A DNA stretch of 64,000 nt from Hartmannibacter diazotrophicus (GTDB lineage: Bacteria; Pseudomonadota; Alphaproteobacteria; Rhizobiales; Pleomorphomonadaceae). The DNA is taken from assembly GCF_900231165.1 (NCBI RefSeq), contig NZ_LT960614.1:3036550-3100549 (forward strand), written 5' to 3'. Below, piece after piece: positions 21,844 through 29,167 of this stretch. How positions within the stretch are numbered: position 1 is the stretch's first letter; every line of letters begins with the position of its first letter. A program made the translations under genes and the position numbers. The notes below the pieces were generated by a model, which worked only from the letters and a program-made list of their open reading frames with translations, was not told the DNA's origin and searched no databases.

Positions 21844-23412
21844 TCAGCCGACCGTCGCCATCGTCTTCTGGCGGCCGAGCGCCTGGCGGTTCAGCAGCTT
21901 GTTGATCGCCGAGACATAGGCGCGCGCCGAGGCGGCCATCGTGTCCGTGTCGGCGGCCTTGGCCGTCACCATGCGGCCGTTGTCCTCAAGCCGCACGGAA
22001 ACCTCCGCCTGCGCGTCGGTCCCTTCCGTGACCGCGCTCACCTGATAGAGCCTCAGCACGGCGTCGTGGGGCACGATCGCGCGGATAGCCTTGAAGGTGG
22101 CGTCCACCGGGCCGTCGCCGGTCTCCTCGCGGGTGATGTGCTGGCCGTTGACGTCGAGCGTCACGATGGCCTTCTGCGGCCCGCCGGTGCCGGCGATGAC
22201 GGTCAGCGACAGCATCTTGATGGCCTCGCTGCCGGTTGCCATCTCGTCGGAGACGAGTGCCTCGATATCCTCGTCGTAGACGTGCTTCTTGCGGTCGGCC
22301 AGATCCTTGAAGCGGCGGAAGGCCTCCTGGAAGGCGTTGTCGCCCAACTCGTAGCCGAGGTCCGCCAGCTTCTCCTTGAAGGCGTGGCGGCCGGAATGCT
22401 TGCCCATGACCAGCGAGGTTGCCTTCACGCCGACATCCTCGGGACGCATGATCTCGTAGGTCTCGGAGTTCTTCAGCATGCCGTCCTGGTGGATGCCGCT
22501 CTCATGCGCGAAGGCGTTCTTGCCGACGATGGCCTTGTTGTACTGGACATCGAAGGACGAGACCGCCGCGACCAGCTTGGACGCGCGGGTGAGATACACC
22601 GGATCGACGCCGCAGGTGTAGGGCAGCACGTCGTGGCGGGTCCGGAGCGCCATAACGACCTCTTCCAGCGCCGCATTGCCCGCGCGCTCACCCAAGCCGT
22701 TGATCGTGCACTCGATCTGCCGCGCGCCGCCGGCAACGCCCGCCAGCGAGTTGGCGACCGCCAGCCCCAGGTCGTCATGACAGTGGACGGAGAAGACCGC
22801 CTTGTCCGCGTTCGGCACGCGGGCGCGGATTTCCTCGAACATCTTGCGGTATTCCTCCGGCACCGAATAGCCGACGGTGTCCGGCAGGTTGATCGTCGTC
22901 GCGCCGCAGGAGATCGCGGCCTCCACGCAGCGGCAGAGATAGTCGATCGGCGTGCGCGTGGCGTCCATCGCCGACCATTCCACATCGTCGATCAGGTTGC
23001 GCGCGCGGGTGACGGTGGCGTTGATGATCTCCAGCACCTCCTCCTGCGTCTTGTTCATCTGGAACTGCAGGTGGATCGGCGAGGTGGAGACGAAGGTGTG
23101 AATGCGGCCGCGTTTGGCATGACGTACTGCCTCGCCCGCCCGGTCGATGTCGGCCGGGATGGCGCGGGCGAGACCGGCAATCACCGAATTTTCGGTGACC
23201 TTGGCAATCTCGCAGACGGCCTCAAAGTCGCCGTTCGAGGCGATCGGGAAGCCGGCCTCAATGATGTCGACGCCCATGGCGTCGAGGATTTCGGCGACCT
23301 GCAGCTTCTCGTCCAGCGTCATCGACGCGCCGGGAGACTGTTCGCCGTCGCGCAGCGTCGTATCGAAAATGACGACGCGGTCCTTGTCGCTGGGCTGGTG
23401 GGTCGTGGTCAT
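21844..23412 (-). CDS. leuA: 2-isopropylmalate synthase
   Basis: A 522-residue enzyme making 2-isopropylmalate from acetyl-CoA and 2-oxoisovalerate, the committed step of leucine synthesis. The catalytic DRE-TIM barrel shows FDTTLRDGEQSPG near the N-terminus, SVHCHDDLGLAVANSLAG with the metal-binding HxH, and NGLGERAGNAALEEV. The last ~130 residues form the LeuA regulatory (leucine-feedback) domain. Length matches the ~520-residue proteobacterial form. It is monocistronic with its own terminator, and its leader carries a leucine-rich ORF described separately, suggesting attenuation by charged tRNA-Leu. Confidence 0.96.
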   Translation of the reverse strand: MTTTHQPSDKDRVVIFDTTLRDGEQSPGASMTLDEKLQVAEILDAMGVDIIEAGFPIASNGDFEAVCEIAKVTENSVIAGLARAIPADIDRAGEAVRHAKRGRIHTFVSTSPIHLQFQMNKTQEEVLEIINATVTRARNLIDDVEWSAMDATRTPIDYLCRCVEAAISCGATTINLPDTVGYSVPEEYRKMFEEIRARVPNADKAVFSVHCHDDLGLAVANSLAGVAGGARQIECTINGLGERAGNAALEEVVMALRTRHDVLPYTCGVDPVYLTRASKLVAAVSSFDVQYNKAIVGKNAFAHESGIHQDGMLKNSETYEIMRPEDVGVKATSLVMGKHSGRHAFKEKLADLGYELGDNAFQEAFRRFKDLADRKKHVYDEDIEALVSDEMATGSEAIKMLSLTVIAGTGGPQKAIVTLDVNGQHITREETGDGPVDATFKAIRAIVPHDAVLRLYQVSAVTEGTDAQAEVSVRLEDNGRMVTAKAADTDTMAASARAYVSAINKLLNRQALGRQKTMATVG

Positions 23413-23485
23413 GGACTGTCCTCTTGCATCTTGCCGGTGCCGGGCGATCGCGGCCTCAAGGTGTCATCGATCGCAGCCAAGGGCA

Positions 23486-23571
23486 CCGCTATTCATTGAA
23501 TCGTGAGCGGTTCTGCCGATGGTCTTCTCCCCTGAGTGCCTGCCCATGCGTGGGCCAGCCGGCGCTCAGGG
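23486..23571 (-). promoter_or_regulatory. leuA leader RNA hairpins (putative attenuator)
   Basis: Read on the minus strand, CCCCTGAG overlaps the stop codon of the leucine-rich leader ORF and pairs with CTCAGGGG downstream (8 bp), enclosing an inner GCCCA-CGCA-TGGGC hairpin. A second stem ACCGCT/AGCGGT follows. No clear T-run ends the structure, so control could be on transcription or on leuA translation. Confidence 0.5.
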
Positions 23572-23634
23572 GCCGGTAAGGAGGAGGCTGAGGGCAAGGC
23601 AAAGGGTCCGCGCGGAGCTGTGCTGCGCGGTCAA
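23566..23634 (-). CDS. leuA leader peptide (leucine-rich)
   Basis: A 22-residue frame ends RTLCLALSLLLTGP then TGA. Six of nine consecutive codons are leucine (CTT, CTT, CTC, CTC, CTC, CTT), directly before a strong hairpin that covers its stop codon and 154 bases upstream of leuA. This is the layout of ribosome-mediated attenuation. The start is uncertain: TTG at 23634 is used here and TTG at 23670 (34 residues) is possible; neither has a strong ribosome site. Function is inferred from codon content and position only. Confidence 0.55.
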   Translation of the reverse strand: MTAQHSSARTLCLALSLLLTGP

Positions 23635-23795
23635 CGCGGTCGGCCATGTCGTGCGGCACGTGTGCGTCAACGGAGGGATCCCGTCCTTAAAGACCTTTGA
23701 TGGAGCAAGTGGATACTCTCTGGCGCCAAGGTCTGGCAAGAGAAAATTGCGGTCCGGCCGCCAGTTTGGCCGCTTGCGGGCATGAAGAGAGGCCC

Positions 23796-28063: not shown

Positions 28064-29167
<1,104 letters not shown>

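Follow-up and report, generated by a model that had tools for sequence, protein, structure and literature searches.

Classical transcription attenuation controls the leu operon of enterobacteria (leuL), with leucine codons placed in the leader peptide. In the antibiotic-induced translational attenuators of the ermC type, a ribosome stalled on the leader displaces a leader strand and frees the Shine-Dalgarno (SD) sequence. The LEU element of Actinobacteria consists of a leuA leader peptide with a run of leucine codons, which forms a base stem with the SD sequence; it folds as a pseudoknot or alternative hairpin and lacks a terminator (Seliverstov et al. 2005, PMC1262725). In Sinorhizobium, trpL / rnTrpL exerts transcription attenuation of the trp genes and gives rise to an sRNA product (PMC10117765).

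The DNA stretch studied here (the window) comprises 64,000 nt of Hartmannibacter diazotrophicus (NZ_LT960614.1) and contains a leuA leader region on the minus strand. The element in this region is probably a leucine-responsive translational attenuator of leuA, to which we assign a probability of roughly 0.7. It shares with the leuL attenuator the use of leader-peptide leucine codons as the putative sensor but differs in having neither terminator nor U-tract and in its predicted output, translation initiation. Release of the SD sequence through a stalled leader ribosome, as predicted here, resembles the ermC type, although the cue would be the availability of an amino acid, sensed through codons whose own bases pair with the SD sequence. 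The closest likeness is to the LEU element: a leader peptide with a leucine run lies directly upstream of leuA, the base stem is formed by the leucine run and the leuA SD sequence (in some species the partner here is just upstream of it), and a terminator is missing. Unlike the LEU element, the leader has a nested hairpin, P1/P2, that encloses the stop codon, a spacer of 30-100 nt, no conserved pseudoknot in the base stem, and L-R-L variants with pairing extended into ANNNG that are not described in PMC1262725. The LEU element belongs to a different phylum; the alphaproteobacterial element is best read as its analogue with a different, hairpin-centred architecture. With Sinorhizobium trpL it has in common the control of an amino acid gene by a leader peptide in Alphaproteobacteria, whereas that system acts on trp transcription and yields an sRNA. 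The features of the locus are as follows.

21844..23412, minus strand: leuA, 2-isopropylmalate synthase, the gene presumed to be regulated (NCBIfam PRK00915, E=8.7e-257, and TIGR00973 leuA_bact, above cut-off)
23566..23670, minus strand: leader peptide ORF MTHTCRTTWPTALTAQHSSARTLCLALSLLLTGP, with a likely TTG start at 23670 and the TGA stop at 23568-23566
23684..23688, minus strand: AAGGA, from its sequence a possible SD of the leader ORF, 13 nt from the TTG
23578..23604, minus strand: leucine codon tract, six Leu in nine codons, the last three (CTN-CTN-CTT) conserved in relatives
23573..23586, minus strand: P0 5' strand CTCCTCCTTACCGG, made up of the final three Leu codons and the ACCGG after them, pairing with the leuA SD region
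23565..23572, minus strand: P1 5' arm CCCCTGAG, which holds the leader stop codon; covarying stem in 44 relatives
23538..23563, minus strand: P1b (GCC/GGC), asymmetric internal loop GGCTG/A, P2 (GCCCA/TGGGC) and loop, from the MFE fold
23529..23536, minus strand: P1 3' arm CTCAGGGG; covarying stem in 44 relatives
23419..23437, minus strand: P0 3' strand CCGGCAAG-ATGCAA-GAGGA, which includes the leuA SD sequence GAGGA (23423..23419)

An earlier note on this DNA had described a short frame with six leucine codons among nine, a stop inside an 8-bp hairpin and leuA just downstream. All three observations are correct: on the minus strand the tract 23604..23578 reads CTT TGC CTT GCC CTC AGC CTC CTC CTT and is followed by ACC GGC CCC TGA, the TGA lies within CCCCTGAG/CTCAGGGG, and the distance from stop to leuA ATG is 153 nt. 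The note overlooked the P0 pairing, the leader start and the breadth of occurrence. The leader frame contains no ATG; the candidate TTG, with AAGGA/GGGA upstream, lies 34 codons ahead of the stop, in agreement with the starts of relatives' leaders, which cluster 33-36 codons before the stop. Assignment of AAGGA as the SD of the leader ORF is tentative because its spacing to the TTG is long. The length of the leader ORF is held near 33-36 codons in relatives and the window despite an unconserved first half. Markov shuffling of the 383-nt upstream region produced six Leu in nine codons in 0.4% of sequences, an 8-bp hairpin in 21% and the two together in 0.1%. Conservation of the element in relatives places it far beyond chance. 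On the same strand, about 5 kb from leuA, an ilvC-like frame that reads as ketol-acid reductoisomerase occupies 28064..29167.

A lack of conservation of the leucine run in relatives had been named beforehand as one observation that would refute attenuation; both run and stem proved to be conserved. Relatives of leuA were drawn from 60 genomes and the leaders of the 30 nearest LeuA loci were read; in 29 of them a frame ending L-L-L-x-x-P-stop, the same ending as in the window, precedes leuA. The leaders share the DNA motif CTN CTN CTT A NNN G CCCC TGA/TAG/TAA plus the hairpin. A search for the exact motif found it, at about one copy per genome, in 202 of the 297 Rhizobiales genomes, and a reversed-pattern control across these genomes was nearly empty, with just a few occurrences. 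When leuA was scored within 700 nt or less downstream of the motif in 120 named public contigs, 113 had a bacterial-type (type-I) and four a yeast-type (type-II) leuA, two ran off the contig, and one match, on a contig labelled Jordarchaeum, was not followed by leuA and looks like chance. Among genomes with this LeuA type the element was found in 15 of the 16 checked, and eight genomes without this LeuA type also lacked the element. One genus of the window's own family (g5) and another family (f23) have neither this LeuA type nor the element.

The principal new feature is P0. The 14 nt that begin with the last three leucine codons (the run and the next five bases) are complementary to the region preceding leuA, and in the window the duplex with its own SD region has an energy of -13.2 kcal/mol. 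Among the relatives, CCUUAUCAG pairs with CUGAUAAGG, the SD sequence, in L020, UUAGGUG and CUUC pair with CACCUAA...GAAGG in L256, and UUCUGCUUAU pairs with AUAAGCAGAA ahead of a yeast-type leuA in L120. A swap test, in which the leucine run of each species was paired with the pre-leuA region of every other species, examined complementarity beyond an SD-like composition. By energy, own pairs were superior to swapped pairs in Rhizobiales (z about -5.5 to -5.7), in 57 leaders of other orders (z=-7.65) and among L-R-L leaders alone (z=-5.5); when the Rhizobiales were thinned hard to n=61, z was -3.4, and shared ancestry partly remains in these tests. Controls with the hairpin loop, the coding region and the upstream leader gave z values between -0.5 and -1.9; pairing of the loop with the spacer was null (loop control, z=-0.5). 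In some species the best 3' strand of P0 is located 15-30 nt upstream of the SD sequence instead of on it, and direct pairing with AAGGA is weaker where the middle codon is CTG or CGA. A strict ungapped register of the run to AGGA gave a weak per-position swap signal, owing to bulges in the helix and to a 3' strand whose position varies, and energy-based tests were therefore used. An anti-SD motif in the leucine run was rejected as the whole explanation, as CTT-A is retained in leaders of the L-R-L class, in which other bases form the pairing.

The same-species complementarity also bears on Rho-dependent transcription attenuation, in which translation of the leader or formation of P0/P1 would set Rho termination before leuA. 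Leucine codons and a stop are conserved although an intrinsic terminator is absent, the spacer could conceivably load Rho, and Rho-dependent leaders have a precedent, for example in the tna operon, as cited in PMC1262725. On its own, however, Rho would leave unexplained why a leucine run matches the SD region of its own species, and we consider this mechanism improbable.

For translational attenuation, pairing of the leucine run with the leuA ribosome-binding site implies that a stall for lack of leucine should switch leuA on. In partition-function folds of 210 leaders, with a ribosome-sized stretch over the leucine run either blocked or free, the unpaired fraction of the SD sequence rose from 0.22-0.26 (free) to 0.42-0.47 (blocked; p=3e-17), whereas a control mask on the hairpin left SD openness unchanged at 0.27. 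In the window, with the upstream RNA removed and the run free, 4-12% of the SD sequence (23423..23419) was computed to be unpaired, as against 50-65% when a ribosome was placed on the final leucine codons. In the full-length fold of the window the SD sequence pairs mainly with the earlier leucine codons, and masking only -12..+14 did not change SD openness; in this computed structure a lock between leucine codons and SD would still exist. The folds predict that a ribosome stalled on the leucine codons would expose the leuA SD sequence. Sequestration of the SD sequence by a leader strand that the stalled ribosome would cover, which defines a ribosome-mediated translational attenuator, is a predicted property of the element.

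The following sequence of events is proposed. The leader ORF of about 34 codons, ending Leu-Leu-Leu-x-x-Pro-stop, would supply the 5' strand of P0 with its last three leucine codons and the five bases that follow, the other strand being at or just before the leuA SD sequence. The P1/P2 hairpin with the stop codon, nested in P0, would draw the P0 strands together. With ample leucine, ribosomes would complete the leader and depart, P0 would form and leuA translation would be low; when charged tRNA-Leu is scarce, a ribosome would stall on the leucine codons and cover the 5' strand of P0, whereupon the SD sequence would be freed. Three steps of this scheme are inferred: translation of the leader, stalling of ribosomes when leucine is low, and a change in leuA output.

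Codon choice in the leader points in the same direction without being specific to it. In all 29 unbiased cases the run has CTT as its third codon, whereas CTT makes up 5.7% of the leucine codons in the leuA genes themselves and 35% of the earlier leucine codons in the leaders. The preference fits a constraint at the RNA level, and it also fits use of the one tRNA by which CTT and CTC are decoded. Many leaders from orders other than Rhizobiales have the ending L-R-L-x-x-P, and the arginine codon is CGA in 31 of 32; this near-invariant CGA is seen in leaders L239-L296 of other orders.

Conservation of the Pro-stop and of LxL across orders would suit ligand-dependent arrest of the ribosome at Pro-stop by the nascent peptide L-(L/R)-L-x-x-P-stop, on the TnaC model. 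Yet the proline codon CCC is replaced by the leucine codon CTC in L255, L260 and L278, where the P1 partner matches via GAG (CCTC/GAGG); it follows that RNA pairing, not proline, is kept. These matched changes weaken peptide arrest as the main constraint, TAA and TAG stops are allowed as well, and we regard arrest as a decidedly unlikely explanation. In one family, represented by L255 and L278 with P1 = CCTC/GAGG, a gene for a small cupin-like protein lies between the leader and leuA.

Pairing in the hairpin (P1, P1b and P2) was assessed by covariation in 44 diverse leaders. Paired cells with changes on both sides numbered 59, versus 22.6 after shuffling, and none of 500 shuffles reached the observed score; a one-base slide of the pairing partner abolished the signal. 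In a wider leader set, 32 compensatory double changes were counted versus 10.1 in shuffled alignments. The P1b pairs covary, and P2 is weaker, with 63% of cells paired. The conserved interior of P0 consists of this single nested hairpin. Rhizobiales hairpins retain, with little change, an asymmetric internal loop in which G(G/A)CNG faces one base (A1 columns 27-31 / 63; window 23560..23556, 23541).

The Rhizobiales hairpin is conserved in sequence beyond the needs of a mere stem, as would be expected of a riboswitch-like RNA in which P1/P2 and the asymmetric loop form a binding site for a protein or ligand and the leucine codons are secondary. Other orders, however, do not keep the internal loop but do keep the leader codons, and the coding frame and its leucine bias are maintained, which makes this reading very unlikely.

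The lack of a clear T-run, and hence a non-classical attenuation acting on leuA translation, had also been suggested in the earlier note; the first is borne out and the second gains support from the conserved run and stem, the pairing of the leucine run with the SD sequence and the scarcity of U-tracts. Classical transcription attenuation, for which a leucine-rich leader peptide and hairpins ahead of a biosynthetic gene could be cited, is largely refuted and scarcely credible, since a terminator scan of the window was empty and a U-tract follows P1 in only 5 of 154 and 4 of 57 relatives; the element is not a classical transcription attenuator. As the window and most relatives have neither terminator nor U-tract, initiation of leuA translation is the most likely output. 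The second stem noted downstream is present (23511..23506 / 23490..23485), and it is probably incidental because inspection of the nearest relatives revealed no equivalent.

Covariance model R1 detected the element in 75 of 289 genomes of the class, nearly always before leuA; model R2, which includes the R1 finds, detected it in 129 of 385 Alphaproteobacteria genomes. Matches on the opposite strand were discarded as palindromic shadows of the hairpin. In a phylum-wide sample outside Alphaproteobacteria, R2 gave no convincing match and one marginal match (E=0.0017). A search of Rfam 15 with the window leader and six loci yielded none above the gathering threshold. In the openly accessible literature only the actinobacterial LEU element was encountered and no report of an alphaproteobacterial leuA leader, although an earlier mention is possible. 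These data make it reasonably likely that the element is an ancient, hitherto undescribed alphaproteobacterial RNA family, in which leucine codons serve as the anti-SD strand, the peptides fall into L-L-L and L-CGA-L classes, the stop resides in a covarying hairpin, and the leader stayed while leuA was exchanged for a non-orthologous gene. A concrete mechanism can thereby be proposed for leucine control in about one third of the sampled Alphaproteobacteria, including Bradyrhizobium, Methylobacterium, Devosia and Bosea. Pairing between leucine codons and the leuA ribosome-binding site is also shown to occur in a phylum besides Actinobacteria. Should the element be confirmed, it would define a new family of the Rfam type and offer a simple system for studying how a single stretch of RNA can be codons and pairing strand at once. 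In L031, L033, L067, L120, L127, L164 and L197 the element precedes a non-orthologous leuA of the leuA_yeast/PRK03739 type (about 27% identical); hence the leader was either kept during gene exchange or moved to the other gene.
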